This document shows, piece after piece, positions 55,629 to 63,579 of a stretch of DNA of 64,000 nt. Below the pieces are notes generated by a model that was given only the letters and a program-made list of their open reading frames with translations, was not told where the DNA came from and made no database searches. How positions within the stretch are numbered: position 1 is the stretch's first letter; each line of letters opens with the position of its first letter. A program made the translations under genes and the position numbers. The DNA is from a virus. Location of the stretch: IMG/VR virus record IMGVR_UViG_3300021389_000015, positions 1 to 64,000 of that record; one strand, given 5' to 3'.

Positions 55629-55730
55629 ATGACTTACAGACCATTTCAATGGAAGATGTTTGTTAAGGCTCGTAAACGTGCTTTAGTTCATAAGATACTG
55701 AACTATCGTCTATTATTAAAAGCAGCTTAA
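55629..55730 (+). CDS. Downstream peptide controlled by the glutamine riboswitch
   Basis: 33 aa basic peptide beginning MTYRPFQWKMFVK, rich in Lys and Arg. AGGGAGG (55613-55619) precedes the ATG. A short frame of this kind directly after the RNA is what gave the downstream-peptide motif its name. Function unknown; the peptide may act on nitrogen metabolism of the host. Confidence 0.75.
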   Translation: MTYRPFQWKMFVKARKRALVHKILNYRLLLKAA

Positions 55731-55945
55731 TAAACTTTAGTATTCTTACCGATGCGCTTAGGTACGCATATCGCCGTATATGATAGGAACTTAGGCGCAT
55801 CTTCTTGTGCGACTCTATTTGGAACACCAGGTTGATTGTTTAATCTTTCAGCAAAGTACTTACATCGATCAATGTCAGCAAAATACATATCTTGACTCTC
55901 TACACGAGAACCTAAATATACCATTAATAAAAATGCGTGTATCAT
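55727..55945 (-). CDS. Small secreted/membrane-anchored protein
   Basis: 72 aa with a hydrophobic N-terminus (MIHAFLLMVYLGSRV) and a body with two cysteines, DMYFADIDRCKYFAERLNNQPG. I recall similar proteins in marine T4-like phages. Last gene of a minus-strand run starting near 57164. Convergent with the downstream-peptide gene, overlapping by four bases. Confidence 0.6.
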   Translation of the reverse strand: MIHAFLLMVYLGSRVESQDMYFADIDRCKYFAERLNNQPGVPNRVAQEDAPKFLSYTAICVPKRIGKNTKVY

Positions 55946-56223
55946 CTTCGTTTCTTCTTAGTTTCTGTTTTAACTATCGAGGCTTGAGCTTCTCTTCTGA
56001 GTTTTTCAAGAGCATCTTCTGATTTATCAAATTTTGGCTTCTCTCTTGTAGAGAGTTGAGCCCAAAACTTATCTTTCACTGGAGCATTATTCTTACTATT
56101 ATTTAACATTATTGTGATGGCTTTATAACCATCACCCATGAACACTAACTTATCATTTTTATATAATTTAGACTTAGACGATATCGTCATATCTAGTATC
56201 ATATTCTCATGTTTGAATATCAT
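55942..56223 (-). CDS. Hypothetical basic protein
   Basis: 93 aa from ATG at 56223 (MIFKHENMILDMTISSKSKL), ending in Lys/Arg. An upstream in-frame ATG at 56256 lies inside the cysteine-rich gene and is less likely. Contains FWAQLSTREKPKFDKSEDALEKL. No recognised family. Confidence 0.5.
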   Translation of the reverse strand: MIFKHENMILDMTISSKSKLYKNDKLVFMGDGYKAITIMLNNSKNNAPVKDKFWAQLSTREKPKFDKSEDALEKLRREAQASIVKTETKKKRR

Positions 56224-56350
56224 CTTTACCACATTCGCATTTCTGACACACGTCATTCATACACTCGGGACATCCACTTGAATAACAGTGACATCGATGT
56301 CCGCAATATCTACACTTTCTCTCTTCACCTACATTTGATTCACCTAACAT
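56207..56350 (-). CDS. Small cysteine-rich zinc-ribbon-like protein (47 aa)
   Basis: Ten cysteines in 47 residues, arranged CRYCGHRCHCYSSGCPEC and CQKCECG, plus His residues, indicating one or two zinc sites. The frame starts nine bases after the stop of the next upstream minus gene and overlaps the following gene by 17 bases. Confidence 0.65.
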   Translation of the reverse strand: MLGESNVGEERKCRYCGHRCHCYSSGCPECMNDVCQKCECGKDDIQT

Positions 56351-56358
56351 ATCAGCTC

Positions 56359-56688
56359 CTACTTTTTACCTATTGAATTTAAACTATCCATCACATTATC
56401 GATGTTTGGTTCTTTACTATTTGGATTGTATACACACTTGAATTGTTTTGGACAATTGTTGTCAAACATCAACTCATATGTTTTATTACCACCCTGATAT
56501 ATACACGCCTGTTCACCACTTCTTGATTGTATGATCTTCTTTAATCTACATGTGGTGTACTTCTTTTCAACGATAGTACCACGTTGTATCTTCTGTTGAC
56601 GAGTATAGTCTTTCTTTGTACCGACCGTCTTAGCACCCGCAAGTGCCGTAGATACTATAACGCAAAAGATAAGAAAAAACTTTATCAT
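56359..56688 (-). CDS. Secreted conserved protein
   Basis: 109 aa. Signal peptide MIKFFLIFCVIVSTALA (cleavage near 17), then a basic stretch and a cysteine-bearing domain (TTCRLKKI, ACIYQGGNKTYELMFDNNCPKQFKCVYNP). Probably periplasmic with disulfides. Found with similar small genes in marine myophages. ATGA overlap with the upstream gene. Confidence 0.65.
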   Translation of the reverse strand: MIKFFLIFCVIVSTALAGAKTVGTKKDYTRQQKIQRGTIVEKKYTTCRLKKIIQSRSGEQACIYQGGNKTYELMFDNNCPKQFKCVYNPNSKEPNIDNVMDSLNSIGKK

Positions 56689-57164
56689 TGATTACTATAA
56701 TAGATCGCACCAAAGACTGCCGCAACTCCACCGACCGCCGCACCCATAACCATGAGTACCATCTTAATGTCGGCCCATGTTTCGGCATCGGCTTTACGCT
56801 TATCGATACGCGCTTGTTTCTCGGCTTCTTTCTGTTCTTGTATTCGCCTTGCGCGTTCATCAACAATTCCTTGCCATGTACCCGGTCCAAATCGTAGATT
56901 AATGAGTGTTGAAATTTCTTGTAGTTGTTCCGCCGCAAGTCTTGCGTCAATCGTTTCTCTTGCGATATGTGCCGTGTCAAACTGTTCTTTGACTCCTAAA
57001 CCACGCTTATTCGACTTCTTATTGACTTCGTCTTTACCACGAAATAATGCGTCAATGTGACTACCTAACTCTCCGATGTCTTTACAGGTATCAATGTTAG
57101 ACTTAATGAAATCTACACTTGACTTCACCAATGCGATACCCGCTAGTATTTCTGCTACTGGCAT
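56685..57164 (-). CDS. Conserved C-terminally anchored membrane protein
   Basis: 159 aa: MPVAEILAGIALVKSSVDFIK at the N-terminus, a coiled-coil region rich in Arg/Glu/Ala (about 95-132) and a C-terminal membrane span (VLMVMGAAVGGVAAVFGAIYY). I recall this family in T4-like cyanophages with unknown role. First gene of the minus-strand late operon with AGGAGTTATT before the ATG. Confidence 0.7.
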   Translation of the reverse strand: MPVAEILAGIALVKSSVDFIKSNIDTCKDIGELGSHIDALFRGKDEVNKKSNKRGLGVKEQFDTAHIARETIDARLAAEQLQEISTLINLRFGPGTWQGIVDERARRIQEQKEAEKQARIDKRKADAETWADIKMVLMVMGAAVGGVAAVFGAIYYSNQ

Positions 57165-57766: not shown

Positions 57767-57979
57767 ATGGCAGAAGTAGAAAAAAAGAACGGTATCGTTA
57801 TTAAAGATGAACACAACGAGTTTGAACTGGCACTCAGATTCCTCGGTAATGAACTGATCGCGATCAAGATGGCGGCGACAAACTTCAGTGGTAAACTGAT
57901 ACTGTGGAGTATTCTACTTCTGCTCTTTAGTTTCATGATGATCGAAGTCTTCGAAGTCAACACGTGGATAGGAGGATAA
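57767..57979 (+). CDS. Small tail-anchored membrane protein
   Basis: 70 aa, charged first half (KKNGIVIKDEHNEFELALRFLG) and one membrane span near 44-62 (LILWSILLLLFSFMMIEVF). Follows the previous gene by nine bases. Confidence 0.58.
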   Translation: MAEVEKKNGIVIKDEHNEFELALRFLGNELIAIKMAATNFSGKLILWSILLLLFSFMMIEVFEVNTWIGG

Positions 57980-57980
57980 C

Positions 57981-58139
57981 ATGTGGGGAAGACTCATTGA
58001 ATACACGGGTGGTAATGAATACAAACCACCTCAGTCAAAAAGGAGAAAGATTATGACACCCAACCCGCACTACATCAATATGATGATTAATATCGGTATC
58101 TTTGGTATGTTAATATACGTAGCTGTGCAAGTATCTTAA
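57981..58139 (+). CDS. Small membrane protein (52 aa)
   Basis: AGGAGGATAAC before the ATG. Begins MWGRLIEYTGGNEYKPPQSK and ends with a hydrophobic span INIGIFGMLIYVAVQVS. An internal ATG at 58053 with AAAGGAGAAAG could give a shorter form. TAATG overlap with the following gene. Confidence 0.6.
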   Translation: MWGRLIEYTGGNEYKPPQSKRRKIMTPNPHYINMMINIGIFGMLIYVAVQVS

Positions 58140-58750
58140 TGAGTAGCATAGTAGACGACAGATTAAACGATTTAAAAGATGACGTTATATATCATTTTAA
58201 AATCAATCACGATAAAGATAAGTTATTAAAAGAATCTAGTTCCGTTAGATATAATGCAATAAATGAAAAGAATCTTGAGAGATATAAAAGACTAGGATTT
58301 ATTGAAAAAGATACTATCAGCTATGATGTTGAGGATAAAGATTGGTTTAATAATCAAAGGGATTGGAAGATATCTTCAAGTTTAGATAATGATTCTAACA
58401 GTGAATCAGAACGTTTGCATGCGATTTTTAAAAGGTTATTACAGGTAGATAATTTAGGTCCTAGATTTCTTACTCAAAAAGAAGGAGCTGATGTTCACTA
58501 CCACATTGATGGCGAAACGTTATGTGCTATTAATTTTTTAGTAAAAGGAGAACGGACTCCAATATCTTTCAAGGATGTAGGACATTTTTATTATGACGTA
58601 GCATTAATTAACACTAATCACGCTCATTCCGTACCAAAACAAATCGACGAGGATAGAGTGTTATTTAAACTAAGAATAAAACAAATGACTTTTAAAGAAG
58701 CTAAGGAGAAACTAGTTGCTAACGAGAACTTTCGAGAGTTCTGGAACTAA
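58139..58750 (+). CDS. 2OG-Fe(II) oxygenase-like protein A
   Basis: 203 aa. The C-terminal domain has the iron ligands H-x-D at His122/Asp124 (HYHIDGETLCAIN) and His163, with Arg173 placed to bind 2-oxoglutarate (EDRVLFKLRI). Resembles aspartyl/asparaginyl hydroxylase-type cupins. A related protein with the same H-x-D-x(4)-C-A-I-N core is encoded at 59934-60428. Substrate unknown. Confidence 0.75.
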   Translation: MSSIVDDRLNDLKDDVIYHFKINHDKDKLLKESSSVRYNAINEKNLERYKRLGFIEKDTISYDVEDKDWFNNQRDWKISSSLDNDSNSESERLHAIFKRLLQVDNLGPRFLTQKEGADVHYHIDGETLCAINFLVKGERTPISFKDVGHFYYDVALINTNHAHSVPKQIDEDRVLFKLRIKQMTFKEAKEKLVANENFREFWN

Positions 58751-59456
58751 ATTAAGATTATCGCTATTATTAAATTTAATAGCGTCTTTAATTTACGTAT
58801 CAGTGTATGGAATAACAATCACTAATCTTGTGACAATATTAGTGATGTACTTTTTATATATGTGCATAGGAATGGTGTGTACTTTTCACCGATTTTACTC
58901 TCATAAGTCATTTGAGTTTAGAAATACTTTTACAAAATACTTATGTACGACTCTTGGTTTACTGTCTGGCTCTGGTTCAGTGTTTGGCTGGTGTGGAGTT
59001 CATAACAAACATCACGATAAGCACGACACTCCAGAAGATCCACACGACTCTAAAAAAGGATTTTTAAGTCTTATAACTTTAAATTACGACTATAATATCG
59101 AACTTAGATACGTAAAATATCTTTTCAAAGACAAGTTTCTTATGATGACTCATAAGTACTACTACTTAATGATAATAGCGTACGTGGCAACGATAGCGAT
59201 ATTATTTGGACCACAAGGAGTTGTATTTGGATTTTGTATACCTTCGGCAATTAACGTCATGGTTCAAGGCCTCACTACTTTCTTCTTACACAAAGACGGA
59301 GCTCCACGATACGTGAATTGGTTAAACTGGTTAGTATTTGGAGATGGTAACCATGACGAGCATCATAAAGATGTCAAACAGTATAAGTTAAAACATTATG
59401 ATATATCAGGATGGGTGATACATTGGATATTACGAAAGCAACTCACAAAAATATAG
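58716..59456 (+). CDS. Fatty-acid desaturase
   Basis: 246 aa integral membrane di-iron enzyme. Three histidine boxes: HRFYSH at 58-63, HNKHH at 96-100 and HDEHH near 212-216, with four hydrophobic segments. Should introduce a double bond into host acyl chains. TTG start with AAGGAG at 58703-58708, inside the preceding gene. Desaturases are known accessory genes of marine T4-like phages. Confidence 0.93.
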   Translation: MLTRTFESSGTKLRLSLLLNLIASLIYVSVYGITITNLVTILVMYFLYMCIGMVCTFHRFYSHKSFEFRNTFTKYLCTTLGLLSGSGSVFGWCGVHNKHHDKHDTPEDPHDSKKGFLSLITLNYDYNIELRYVKYLFKDKFLMMTHKYYYLMIIAYVATIAILFGPQGVVFGFCIPSAINVMVQGLTTFFLHKDGAPRYVNWLNWLVFGDGNHDEHHKDVKQYKLKHYDISGWVIHWILRKQLTKI

Positions 59457-59980
59457 TACGTGATAAACAAGAAATATCAAGAGTATTTTCACTGGCGTAC
59501 GAAGATAACATTCACCACGTTAATCGAAATAATTATAAAACTGTAAGATTAGATGGTTACATCAGATTTGACGTACTTTACTTTGAAGATGATGTGATAT
59601 CTTTTTCAGGATTGTGGACTCACGATAAATGGAATGATTGCGCACGAGCTGCTGATAGATATTACATCTTTAAAAAATACAGATGTAAGACTCTAGTATC
59701 AAGACCAAGTATGTTTGCGGCATCTCAATTATTCATACCAAAGCAATTTAAGACAGCGATTGAATGGGGACTCCATCCGTTCGTATCGATACAAAATATA
59801 AAGAAGAAAAAAGTTATTGACATTACTCGAGAACGTCTTAAAAATAATCACGATCTCGATTGTGTAGTCCTTGATGAATTAAAATATACTTGTGTAGATA
59901 ACAGTGACTCTATTAATTGTTGGCAAAACATACTTACGTTGAGATCTTGTAAAGATCAAGTCTCTTCTTCGCTTTCATAA
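59411..59980 (+). CDS. Conserved phage protein of unknown function
   Basis: 189 aa. YKTVRLDGYIRFDVLYFEDDVISFSGLW followed by ARAADRYYIFKKYR recalls a family in marine myophages with an acyltransferase-like (GNAT) look, but catalytic residues are not evident. Overlaps the desaturase by 46 bases and converges with the minus-strand oxygenase, overlapping by 47 bases. Confidence 0.55.
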   Translation: MGDTLDITKATHKNIVRDKQEISRVFSLAYEDNIHHVNRNNYKTVRLDGYIRFDVLYFEDDVISFSGLWTHDKWNDCARAADRYYIFKKYRCKTLVSRPSMFAASQLFIPKQFKTAIEWGLHPFVSIQNIKKKKVIDITRERLKNNHDLDCVVLDELKYTCVDNSDSINCWQNILTLRSCKDQVSSSLS

Positions 59981-60428
59981 AATCAATATCAAATATAGAC
60001 ATCTTAAAAAGTTTTCTTGGTTCGGTGACAGCTTCTACTCGATGTTCTGTCTGAACGTCGATCAGTGAAAAAGAGTAAGAGTGTGATGTTACGGTGCCAT
60101 CGCGTCGGAACCATATCGGGTCTTGATCCGTACTCAGTATCATGTTAATCGCGCACTTCGTACCTCTGTCAACATGCCACGGTACTTCACACTTATCTTT
60201 TAAGATATAATAACGAGGATGACACTGTACGTCTAAAATTTTGCTCATTCGTCTGTTGATCTCGTTCGTGTAAGGTCCTACGTCTTTACATATCATCCAG
60301 TAGTCAAGGCTCTTACCACCTAAAGGATCAAAGTACGGTTCGTACGAAGCCTCGTCACATTCTTGTAATATTAAATCTTTATCGTACTCTATGCAGTTAA
60401 TTTCTTGTATCATGTGGAATACATCCAA
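59934..60428 (-). CDS. 2OG-Fe(II) oxygenase-like protein B
   Basis: 164 aa. WHVDRGTKCAIN (His85, Asp87), His129 (QTEHRV) and Arg138 (EPRKLFKM) form the facial triad and 2OG-binding arginine. Paralogue of protein A on the opposite strand: same spacing, same CAIN core, same PI-W/SF and LFK-x-x-I strands. Overlaps oxygenase C by 32 bases. Confidence 0.75.
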   Translation of the reverse strand: MDVFHMIQEINCIEYDKDLILQECDEASYEPYFDPLGGKSLDYWMICKDVGPYTNEINRRMSKILDVQCHPRYYILKDKCEVPWHVDRGTKCAINMILSTDQDPIWFRRDGTVTSHSYSFSLIDVQTEHRVEAVTEPRKLFKMSIFDIDFMKAKKRLDLYKIST

Positions 60429-60837
60429 CGATATGAATTCGAGTCTCTGTAGAAGCGTTGACTGCCGTGTGTAACTTTGTGGTATCGATGACGTAAGGTC
60501 TTCCGATATCAGGACACCTGACTACCTCGTCATCAACAACTAGGAAACACTTGTCGTTAGTCACCACGGGCACGTGTAGTCTCTTCGTAGGATCTTGATG
60601 ATAAGTATAGCACGTCTTCGATCTCATTCTCATGACTCGAGTCCTATAAAGGTTGTGATCATCTATAATGCTGTTCAGTACGGGTGTGTCAAAGATTTTT
60701 CTTACGAGTGCTGTGTCGTTACGATTAACTCCACAGCCAAGAAACGGGTCTCCGCTCTCGTCACTTTGTAAACATATCTGATCCTCAAAGCGAGGTAGAG
60801 ACATAATCTCTTCTATTATCTTTTTCGTATCATACAT
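60397..60837 (-). CDS. 2OG-Fe(II) oxygenase-like protein C
   Basis: 146 aa. TYHQDPTKRLHVPVV (His80, Asp82), His123 (TTKLHTAVN) and Arg133 (ETRIHIVG) give the same triad, in a form closer to aspartyl beta-hydroxylase (AspH). It lies directly behind the radical SAM gene with an eight-base overlap, so these are translated together. Confidence 0.8.
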   Translation of the reverse strand: MYDTKKIIEEIMSLPRFEDQICLQSDESGDPFLGCGVNRNDTALVRKIFDTPVLNSIIDDHNLYRTRVMRMRSKTCYTYHQDPTKRLHVPVVTNDKCFLVVDDEVVRCPDIGRPYVIDTTKLHTAVNASTETRIHIVGCIPHDTRN

Positions 60838-61762
60838 ATTCTTTCCTAGAACAAAGTAAACCTATACATCCACAAATGTCTCGTTCGCAACTTATACTAT
60901 ATTTAGGCAATATAAAATTATCGACAAAAGACTTAAGATAAATGTTTGATTTTTTCGTAAAGTTTTGTCCACACGACATTGTTCCTATAAAACCTCTACT
61001 GTCTATCTGTATGAAGTCGTGATGAGCGTAACAACGATATCCAGTAAAAGTACCTCGTAAATTCTTCACGTGATGGAGTTGTAGATCAAAGATCTCTCCA
61101 TCACAGTTTACTTTACAAGATGGTTTCATGAGAGGTTGGTGTATGTTATCCTTGATGATCACCTCTTGTTCGAGCGAGTACTCTATCACTCTTCCGTTTT
61201 CTCTTAAAGTCTTAAGTTGAAAGTTAACATCACTAAATCTGTCTGATAGAGTACTATACGCGTCGATACACTCGTCAAATAACTTAGGATTTACCATCAC
61301 ATGTACTCGTAAACCGACATCGTCCTTGATACACTCGATAACTTTGGCCATGTGTTCGAGATCCGTATATTCAGAATGATAAGACAACAATACGTGATCG
61401 ATATATTGTAGGTTTTGCTTCCACCATCTTACAGTTCGACTTCCGTTCGATACAAAACCAATCTCACCAAAAGGTCTTAAGAAGTCCATCAACTGAACGA
61501 TGTCGCGATACAGTGTTGGTTCACCTCCACCAAAGTTAAACACTATCCTTTGTTTACTTACAGCATCGATCTCTTTCAACAGATGATATACATTTCTTTT
61601 TAAGACATCGTCGAGTCTTGGAACTCTGTCGGTGCCGGTGTTGGCGTTAGGAAAACAGTAAGAGCAATTGAAGTTACAAGTGTTACCAAGTACCCAGTCT
61701 ATTATCGTCAAGTCAGACACGTCTCTGTCTATAGATAAGATTTTCTTACCGTCGAGTCTCAT
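60830..61762 (-). CDS. Radical SAM protein with SPASM-like C-terminus
   Basis: 310 aa. Cluster motif CNFNCSYC (Cys29, Cys33, Cys36), GGGEP at 78-82 and a TIM-barrel length typical of the family. The C-terminal 100 residues hold several more cysteines (SCKVNC, GYRCYAHH, SCGQNF, SCERDICGCIGLLC), suggesting an auxiliary Fe-S cluster as in SPASM/twitch enzymes that modify peptides or proteins. Runs with two 2OG oxygenases. Confidence 0.9.
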   Translation of the reverse strand: MRLDGKKILSIDRDVSDLTIIDWVLGNTCNFNCSYCFPNANTGTDRVPRLDDVLKRNVYHLLKEIDAVSKQRIVFNFGGGEPTLYRDIVQLMDFLRPFGEIGFVSNGSRTVRWWKQNLQYIDHVLLSYHSEYTDLEHMAKVIECIKDDVGLRVHVMVNPKLFDECIDAYSTLSDRFSDVNFQLKTLRENGRVIEYSLEQEVIIKDNIHQPLMKPSCKVNCDGEIFDLQLHHVKNLRGTFTGYRCYAHHDFIQIDSRGFIGTMSCGQNFTKKSNIYLKSFVDNFILPKYSISCERDICGCIGLLCSRKEYV

Positions 61763-61776
61763 ATCACTGTGTCATT

Positions 61777-61962
61777 TCATTTTTGTGCATATTTCTTCTT
61801 AAACGCATATACATCAAACATCTTCAGATTCATCCACATACAAAAGAATCCAAATATCGATACACCCAGATGACTCGACATCCCTACCTTTAAAGAATAA
61901 AGGATTAATAAGGAATAAAACGCCACTACTACTTGATCTTTTACCGTTAATTGATTACTCAT
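61777..61962 (-). CDS. Small membrane protein ahead of the radical SAM gene
   Basis: 61 aa with two hydrophobic segments (VVVAFYSLLILYSLKVGM and LGVSIFGFFCMWMNLKMF) and a basic tail. First or second gene of the minus-strand operon. Function unknown. Confidence 0.55.
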   Translation of the reverse strand: MSNQLTVKDQVVVAFYSLLILYSLKVGMSSHLGVSIFGFFCMWMNLKMFDVYAFKKKYAQK

Positions 61963-62159
61963 ATCCTACATATCATCCATATAATACATCCTATAATAGA
62001 ACAATATAGGGTCATCCAATAATACATGTCTCTCATACTCCATATAACTTCATTAATACACTCACAGAACAGTACGCTATAGTAATAACTACTATATAGA
62101 GTAATAGATAATCGGGTGTGGTCACGTGTACTATATCCTATATAGAAAAGGTTATCCAT
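61959..62159 (-). CDS. Possible small membrane protein
   Basis: 66 aa, rich in Tyr, Cys and Trp, with a C-terminal hydrophobic segment (YYWMTLYCSIIGCIIWMICR). GAGG lies close before the ATG and its stop overlaps the next start as ATGA, which supports reality, but the composition is unusual and it may be spurious. Confidence 0.35.
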   Translation of the reverse strand: MDNLFYIGYSTRDHTRLSITLYSSYYYSVLFCECINEVIWSMRDMYYWMTLYCSIIGCIIWMICRI

Positions 62160-62908: not shown

Positions 62909-63579
62909 ACCAAAAAGTATGGGTACGCCGTGAGTATCTGAGAGATCTCCAGGATGGACACGGTGAATTCGTCGAGGGTCACTGGGTATCCGCTAAGAGT
63001 ATCCCGGGTCGTGCCTTCTATTTCGAAACATTCTTACCCGAGTACGGTGCCTTATTCGATAAACTACCGATCAGTGCCTTTGTTGCTGATCCAGAGACAC
63101 CCTCTGTTGATATGGCATTACCCGATCTACAGTTCTGGAATTGCATGGACTACGGTGTTACATGTATACAGAAACAGTTTATAGGCTCTATGGATTTTGA
63201 AGTCTATACAAAGAATCATGGATTTGTAAAGGGTTCCTATATTGCTACCTTGGATAACTACCATATACATGCGGATGAGATTGATTACTCTACGGCAGAG
63301 CAGCCGGACGAGCATAAGTCTTTCAACTTGCTTGAACTCGAGAATGGGCAATACTGTCTGTATCCGAATAATCGAATGAGAGTGTATGATAATAGTCTGA
63401 CACCGAAGAATCCGAAGATGCCGGACTTTAAAGTATCTACCGAGTACTATCAGGTCGAGAATGGCAATGAGTACCGACTCGGAGATACGGAAGAGTACTT
63501 CTATGATGCGGAGCTCGCTGAGAATGTCGATAAAGAGAATGCCGTACCATCACACGGTATACTCGGTCAAGGATGCTGA
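62881..63579 (+). CDS. Conserved T4-like protein without a canonical start codon
   Basis: About 232 aa. The frame reads NIPNQKVWVRREYLRDLQDG from 62899 and stays open to 63579, with FYFETFLPEYGALFDKLPIS and LQFWNCMDYGVTCIQKQFIG, a sequence I recall as highly conserved in marine T4-like phages. The only upstream stop is at 62860. No ATG, GTG or TTG precedes this part. AAAGGAG (62867-62873) is seven bases before an AUA at 62881; AUU at 62893 is an alternative. An ATG at 63112 would remove a conserved third of the protein. Confidence 0.75.
   Translation: MSHLICNIPNQKVWVRREYLRDLQDGHGEFVEGHWVSAKSIPGRAFYFETFLPEYGALFDKLPISAFVADPETPSVDMALPDLQFWNCMDYGVTCIQKQFIGSMDFEVYTKNHGFVKGSYIATLDNYHIHADEIDYSTAEQPDEHKSFNLLELENGQYCLYPNNRMRVYDNSLTPKNPKMPDFKVSTEYYQVENGNEYRLGDTEEYFYDAELAENVDKENAVPSHGILGQGC

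Follow-up and report, generated by a model that had tools for sequence, protein, structure and literature searches.

The 64,000-nucleotide stretch analyzed here, positions 1 to 64,000 of the virus record IMGVR_UViG_3300021389_000015 in IMG/VR (the window), carries an island of enzyme genes at positions 58139 to 62159. Three of its products, a predicted AspH-family hydroxylase (C), a desaturase-like membrane protein (D), and a conserved protein (G), form a unit that recurs in other viral contigs, often with members of a predicted oxygenase family represented in the window by A and B. A radical SAM protein (R), which a sequence-only reading of the window had placed at the center of a multistep modification system, is an optional extra. 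Tentatively, and short of even odds, we favor the view that the island works as an exchangeable cassette for oxidative tailoring, yielding a small molecule that would be decorated and probably acylated or tied to the envelope.

The island consists of two facing sets of overlapping genes. On the plus strand lie A (58139 to 58750), D (58716 to 59456, with a TTG start), and G (59411 to 59980), the start of D falling inside A and that of G inside D. The minus strand carries M2 (61959 to 62159), M1 (61777 to 61962), R (60830 to 61762), C (60397 to 60837), and B (59934 to 60428). M2 and M1 overlap by 4 nucleotides, a gap of 14 nucleotides separates M1 from R, and the R/C and C/B overlaps measure 8 and 32 nucleotides, respectively. 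The two sets meet tail to tail, with G and B overlapping by 47 nucleotides. The sequence-only reading had correctly given the positions and order of M1, R, C, and B on the minus strand and of A and D on the plus strand, but had missed G. In a Pfam profile search, R matched Radical_SAM (PF04055; 9e-13, 49.1 bits against a cut-off of 29.5), C matched Asp_Arg_Hydrox (PF05118; 6e-9, 36.3 bits against 22.6), and D matched FA_desaturase (PF00487; 1.4e-11, 45.1 bits against 29.7), while A, B, and G fell into no Pfam family.

Searches of viral contigs with A or G as the query returned only two close relatives, L077 and L078. With B and C as queries, 12 loci were retrieved (L169 to L180), of which L169 contains B by construction. 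D occurs at nine of the 12, and a relative of G at the same nine (L169, L172, L173, and L175 to L180; G relatives are also present in L077 and L078). Members of the A/B family were found in L172, L173, L176, L179 (two copies), and L180, in addition to L169. Collapsing near-identical viruses by the identity of C left six groups, five of them with D and G. At 75 loci retrieved with R, D was seen twice and G never (Fisher test against the 12 B/C loci, 5e-6 for D and 2e-7 for G); these p values are only indicative, because the control consists of R-fetched loci rather than random contigs. No R orthologue lies beside C at any of the 12 B/C-fetched loci, and six of the 12 contigs, which are partial records, hold no radical SAM gene at all. 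Since D and G recur at these loci and R does not, C-D-G, often with A/B, is the recurring unit. The multi-enzyme modification cassette proposed from the window's sequence therefore stands as an oxidative cassette found in other viral contigs, but not with R at its center: C, D, and G (often with A/B) co-occur, R does not accompany C, and D, previously mentioned only in passing, is part of the core.

Among the close relatives, a common island is maintained while modules are exchanged. The L077 island holds A, D, G, O2, and a nitroreductase; that of L078 holds A, R2 (a radical SAM protein unrelated to R), G, O2, and a nitroreductase. O2 has no Pfam family, and its oxygenase label comes only from an HxD-containing sequence. 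In L180, B and C face G, D, and the small protein s70, and a QueC-like PP-loop enzyme (PF06508, 2.7e-10) follows C in place of the window's R. The window, L077, L078, and L180 thus differ by the modules R/C/B, oxygenase plus nitroreductase, and B/C/QueC-like enzyme. Gene order varies further in L179, where an A/B member and C face G, a second A/B member, and D, and in L169, where D, B, and G follow one another and are joined directly to a radical SAM cluster; a TauD-type neighbor in L169 has natural-product oxygenases as its best matches, below the cut-off. The island of L178 (8422 to 16434) contains C, D, a G relative, at least two TauD/AspH-like oxygenases, and a Rieske ring-hydroxylase-like protein. 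As judged from gene lists rather than a synteny tool, L178, L179, and the window have one flank in common (a DUF932-like protein and its neighbors), so that their islands appear to hold one variable spot in related phages. Glycosyltransferase genes lie directly downstream of the L077 and L078 islands and within related clusters.

The hydroxylase C has 11 viral orthologues with 47 to 58% identity, and its motif residues H80xD82, H123, and R133 are invariant across ten viral sequences; it is classified on these grounds as a bona fide PF05118 AspH-type hydroxylase. Its profile finds the entry set of the caprazamycin hydroxylase Cpz10 as the nearest solved structures. Cpz10 (7v4f) hydroxylates a nucleoside-antibiotic intermediate in caprazamycin biosynthesis and has an HxD...H...R core in common with C; however, it belongs to an actinobacterial antibiotic pathway, with low identity to C and no partner genes in common (excerpts of PMC9814697). 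The only NCBIfam match of note for C, LpxO, lies far under its cut-off, and an LpxO-type lipid hydroxylase was rejected as an identity for C (NF033391, 18.2 bits against 500). Among cultured phages, a relative of C was found only in Pelagibacter phage Mosig, outside any such cluster. Two stand-alone C-like AspH genes (L185, 6700 to 7296; L184, 7596 to 8234) resemble the AspH gene of Mosig and sit in housekeeping surroundings in a 1.2-Mb bacterial genome.

A and B are paralogues, as the sequence-only reading had noticed (phmmer 6e-11 and 1e-11, one per direction); the A orthologues in L077 and L078 are 94% and 76% identical to A, and B has orthologues in L169 and L180. H122, D124, H163, and R173, corresponding to an HxD...H iron triad and a 2-oxoglutarate (2OG)-binding arginine, are invariant in all nine family members aligned, so the iron and 2OG sites appear intact in A/B as in C. 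Profile searches linked A/B to no Pfam family and no PDB relative, and to C only weakly (hhalign 42%). An AlphaFold2 (AF2) model of A, built from a shallow alignment, reached a predicted local distance difference test (pLDDT) score of 38. These features suggest that A and B are Fe(II)/2OG oxygenases of a family separate from C and missing from Pfam; the label "AspH-like," originally applied to the oxygenases together, holds for C and not for A/B. A had no match among cultured phages. A search of 289 genomes from a single bacterial class, the one that includes the 1.2-Mb genome with C-like genes, gave no A/B relative, a weak negative obtained with no positive control, and a candidate in L010 with a CAIN-like stretch in common was not confirmed by profile.

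In D, the histidine boxes H58/H63, H96/H99/H100, and H213/H216/H217 are invariant in 10 sequences, and its profile matches the acyl-CoA desaturase 4zyo at 1e-16. D is accordingly classed as a predicted acyl-CoA-desaturase-like membrane di-iron enzyme, resembling the acyl-CoA desaturase SCD1 (4zyo, 4ymk) in its histidine boxes and membrane layout, although D is shorter, phage-borne, and known here from sequence. Cultured phages gave three distant matches to D. For its partner G, acetyltransferase-like at best, one of six family members matches Acetyltransf_7, at 0.013. G had no PDB match in a profile search and no match among cultured phages, and an AF2 model from a shallow alignment reached a pLDDT of 41. 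Weak G matches to an L044 ORF (open reading frame) and to a radical SAM protein of L033 were not used.

The CX3CX2C motif of R (C29, C33, C36) is present in all 41 aligned sequences, with GGE at positions 79 to 81. Its C-terminal cysteines C244, C264, C292, C297, and C299 are kept in 33 to 35 of the 41 homologues (C264 in 28), which agrees with the auxiliary-cluster cysteines first read from the window alone. PF13186 (SPASM) does not match R. We therefore describe R as a predicted radical SAM enzyme with five conserved, SPASM/twitch-like C-terminal auxiliary cysteines. R reaches no named-family cut-off: a prokaryotic viperin was rejected (NF038283, 53 bits against 180), and a QueE match is generic and far under its cut-off.

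R is an accessory drawn from a gene pool that in other viral contigs makes up clusters of 10 to 19 radical SAM genes. Contigs with R relatives (L002 to L050) mostly carry 8 to 19 radical SAM genes each, among the matches listed. In contigs of at least 70 kb, 18 of 20 AspH matches have a radical SAM gene at most 5 kb away, where random placement would give 6.3, again among the matches listed. Among cultured phages, R had only a distant match, in one Campylobacter phage. In bacteria (Bdellovibrionales, Nocardia), the surroundings of R relatives are free of AspH genes out to 9 kb. In a Bdellovibrionales genome bin (L093, 6437 to 9980), twitch-type radical SAM proteins adjoin an R relative and a carbamoyltransferase-like gene. 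The virus record G023 (L087, 1 to 20000, and L088, 1 to 12338) holds a cluster of about 30 kb that amounts to a separate viral biosynthetic cluster: many radical SAM proteins lie beside a tail-fibre-like gene, with tryptophan-halogenase-like, class IV aminotransferase, AMP-binding, nitroreductase-like, and QueC-like proteins. A methyltransferase-like family with an NTSCEH (or close) motif accompanies radical SAM clusters in L012, L034, L044, L085, L087, L171, and L174.

The window comes from a virus record of 73,320 bases, whose genes for terminase, portal, capsid, sheath, and DNA polymerase are T4-like. The portal protein is 67% identical to that of Phage C48C1 and about 50 to 53% identical to those of phages of marine Methylophilales and Pelagibacter. 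The virus is a marine T4-like phage with the enzyme island at a hypervariable spot, flanked by a cell-wall-hydrolase side at one end and a phrog_3704/DUF932-like side at the other. On the latter side, positions 63112 to 63579 match phrog_3704 ("ferredoxin") at 6e-61, with the first 77 profile positions missing in that frame. In relatives (L078, 11452 to 12493; L180, 5501 to 6923), a small-gene cassette found at 55727 to 57164 of the window is placed at the opposite end of the island or is inverted, which suggests local rearrangement at the hotspot. Between this cassette and A, s70 (57767 to 57979, plus strand) is a small protein with a C-terminal membrane helix; it stands beside A or D in L077, L078, and L180, with 65 to 91% identity over four islands. 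A 52-amino-acid ORF adjoining s70 and A (57981 to 58139, plus strand) has a 56% identical counterpart in L180. M1, a hydrophobic protein of 61 amino acids, heads the R-C-B operon, and L179 has a weak match to it (phmmer 4e-4) upstream of A/B; M2 is a hydrophobic ORF of 66 amino acids. Ratios of nonsynonymous to synonymous substitution rates (dN/dS) were 0.11 to 0.17 for A, about 0.33 for G, and 0.07 for s70. For D, B, and C, dS was saturated against the nearest relatives of the window; the comparison of D within the L179/L180 pair indicates purifying selection. The island genes are under purifying selection and are not chance ORFs.

The reading that we tentatively prefer, a tailoring cassette, starts from the enzyme classes. 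Because D resembles acyl-CoA desaturases of membranes and its partners are predicted hydroxylases, the core would act on an acylated or membrane-associated small molecule, and D favors small-molecule tailoring over peptide maturation. D would act on, or beside, an acyl chain in the membrane, G would conjugate or prepare the substrate, A, B, and C would hydroxylate the head group or the chain, and R would add a radical step. Exchangeable add-ons (R or R2, the nitroreductase with O2, the QueC-like PP-loop enzyme, and TauD/Rieske oxygenases) would diversify the product, made from host precursors during infection. Such variability would fit phage-phage competition, for instance through an altered surface of the infected cell. 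This surface role is suggested by the variability of the island and by the literature: phages adsorb about 4-fold less to a marine bacterium that has lost its aminolipids (excerpts of PMC9938194), and host-recognition islands are populated by glycosyltransferases and radical SAM cassettes (excerpts of PMC7029224). A bolder version, which we consider doubtful, is that a rapidly recombining pathway of C-D-G-A/B and add-ons in marine T4-like phages supplies the infected cell with oxidised acyl or amino lipids of a novel class, which would change its surface and so lower the adsorption of competing phages, with A/B as a new oxygenase family.

Several points weigh against a dedicated tailoring pathway. 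Three of the C loci (L170, L171, and L174) have neither D nor G, G is acetyltransferase-like at best, and the cassette contains no carrier protein, thioesterase, or complete pathway. The enzymes might also have more than one target. In other phages (L084 to L086), D stands without A, C, and G, a finding that had led to a view of D as a mere stray gene, reversed by its presence at nine of the 12 B/C-fetched loci. Solitary D genes would likewise fit a hotspot that gathers unrelated auxiliary metabolic genes, each with its own host target, as would the exchange of modules between close relatives. The GC content of R-C-B (38 to 42%) is above that of A-D-G (31 to 34%), which fits separate origins of the two sets. 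We regard such a collection with no joint pathway as unlikely: C, D, and G stand together in several independent locus groups, in overlapping genes and varied order, a recurrence that chance accumulation does not predict.

The layout of R relatives also counts against small-molecule tailoring, since it resembles that of peptide-maturase-type SPASM enzymes. The targets of cross-linking or hydroxylation by R and the oxygenases might instead be proteins of the phage or the host, for example a tail fibre or a small membrane protein; a protein or a peptide was among the targets that the sequence-only reading had named. Small membrane proteins are indeed kept beside the islands, and radical SAM/AspH clusters adjoin tail-fibre-like genes at several related viral loci. 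Yet R is dispensable, being missing from the C-fetched loci, and its core is preceded by only about 20 residues, which leaves no room for a recognition domain. The hallmarks of ribosomally synthesized and post-translationally modified peptides (precursor, leader recognition domain, peptidase or exporter) were not found in the cassette; no peptidase or transporter was recognized there, and, in line with the initial remark that no precursor peptide was evident, no precursor-like ORF with a variable core is conserved across the islands. By their sequences, s70 and M1 look like membrane proteins and not like variable-core precursors. Maturation of a peptide or protein, which finds no specific support here and leaves an acyl-desaturase-like core enzyme unexplained, is in our judgment improbable. 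Decoration of a surface polysaccharide or of nucleotide-sugar building blocks appears less probable again. It would account for the glycosyltransferases near the L077 and L078 islands and inside related clusters, for a bacterial R relative that lies near a DegT-type aminotransferase and, as read from sequence, is fused to a glycosyltransferase-like domain, and for the lipopolysaccharide-type genes and radical SAM cassettes of pelagimyophage variable islands (excerpts of PMC7029224), but the window cassette has no sugar-nucleotide enzyme, and enzymes of the AspH and desaturase types do not usually act on glycans. Least probable is a hypermodified DNA base or tRNA, with the QueC-like and radical SAM enzymes working in the manner of 7-deazaguanine pathways. 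QueC-like enzymes do occur, after C in L180 and repeatedly in radical SAM clusters; the QueE match of R is too generic to help, no QueD/FolE/TGT/DpdA-type gene was recognized in the island, and none of C, D, and G is known to take part in pathways of this kind.

The mixture of enzyme classes in the tailoring cassette resembles that of ornithine-lipid and lipid A hydroxylation (OlsB/OlsC/OlsE, LpxO), in which an AspH-type hydroxylase, a membrane di-iron enzyme, and an acyltransferase take part. The likeness is one of working principle only, given the LpxO score of C and the status of G. R, for its part, has the radical SAM core and C-terminal auxiliary cysteines of SPASM peptide maturases, unlike which it reaches no family cut-off and comes with no N-terminal recognition domain or precursor. 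Marine T4-like phages have already been reported to carry radical SAM cassettes, AspH, and numerous 2OG oxygenases (excerpts of PMC7029224 and PMC3037559). Hypervariable islands of pelagimyophages and cyanomyophages likewise combine a plastic island with radical SAM cassettes and AspH and 2OG oxygenase genes; the pelagimyophage host recognition cluster lies between VrlC and gp14, in contrast to the flanks of the window island, and the excerpts consulted mention neither the C-D-G(-A/B) unit nor the A/B family (PMC7029224). Cyanomyophages also carry several 2OG-Fe(II) oxygenase genes per genome, for which 2-oxoglutarate modulation or DNA repair has been proposed, whereas those of the window form a recurring cassette with D and G (excerpts of PMC3037559). 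The literature searched, with incomplete coverage and full texts queried by term only, yielded no mention of the unit, of the A/B family, or of the exchange of modules.

Hypervariable islands of abundant ocean phages are full of unexplained enzymes, and the C-D-G(-A/B) unit, which is distinct from the radical SAM enzymes, makes a testable pathway of few parts out of such an assortment. It further suggests that Pfam lacks at least one family of oxygenases, A/B. Should the product prove to be an envelope molecule, the control that phages exert over the surface chemistry of their hosts would become directly testable.

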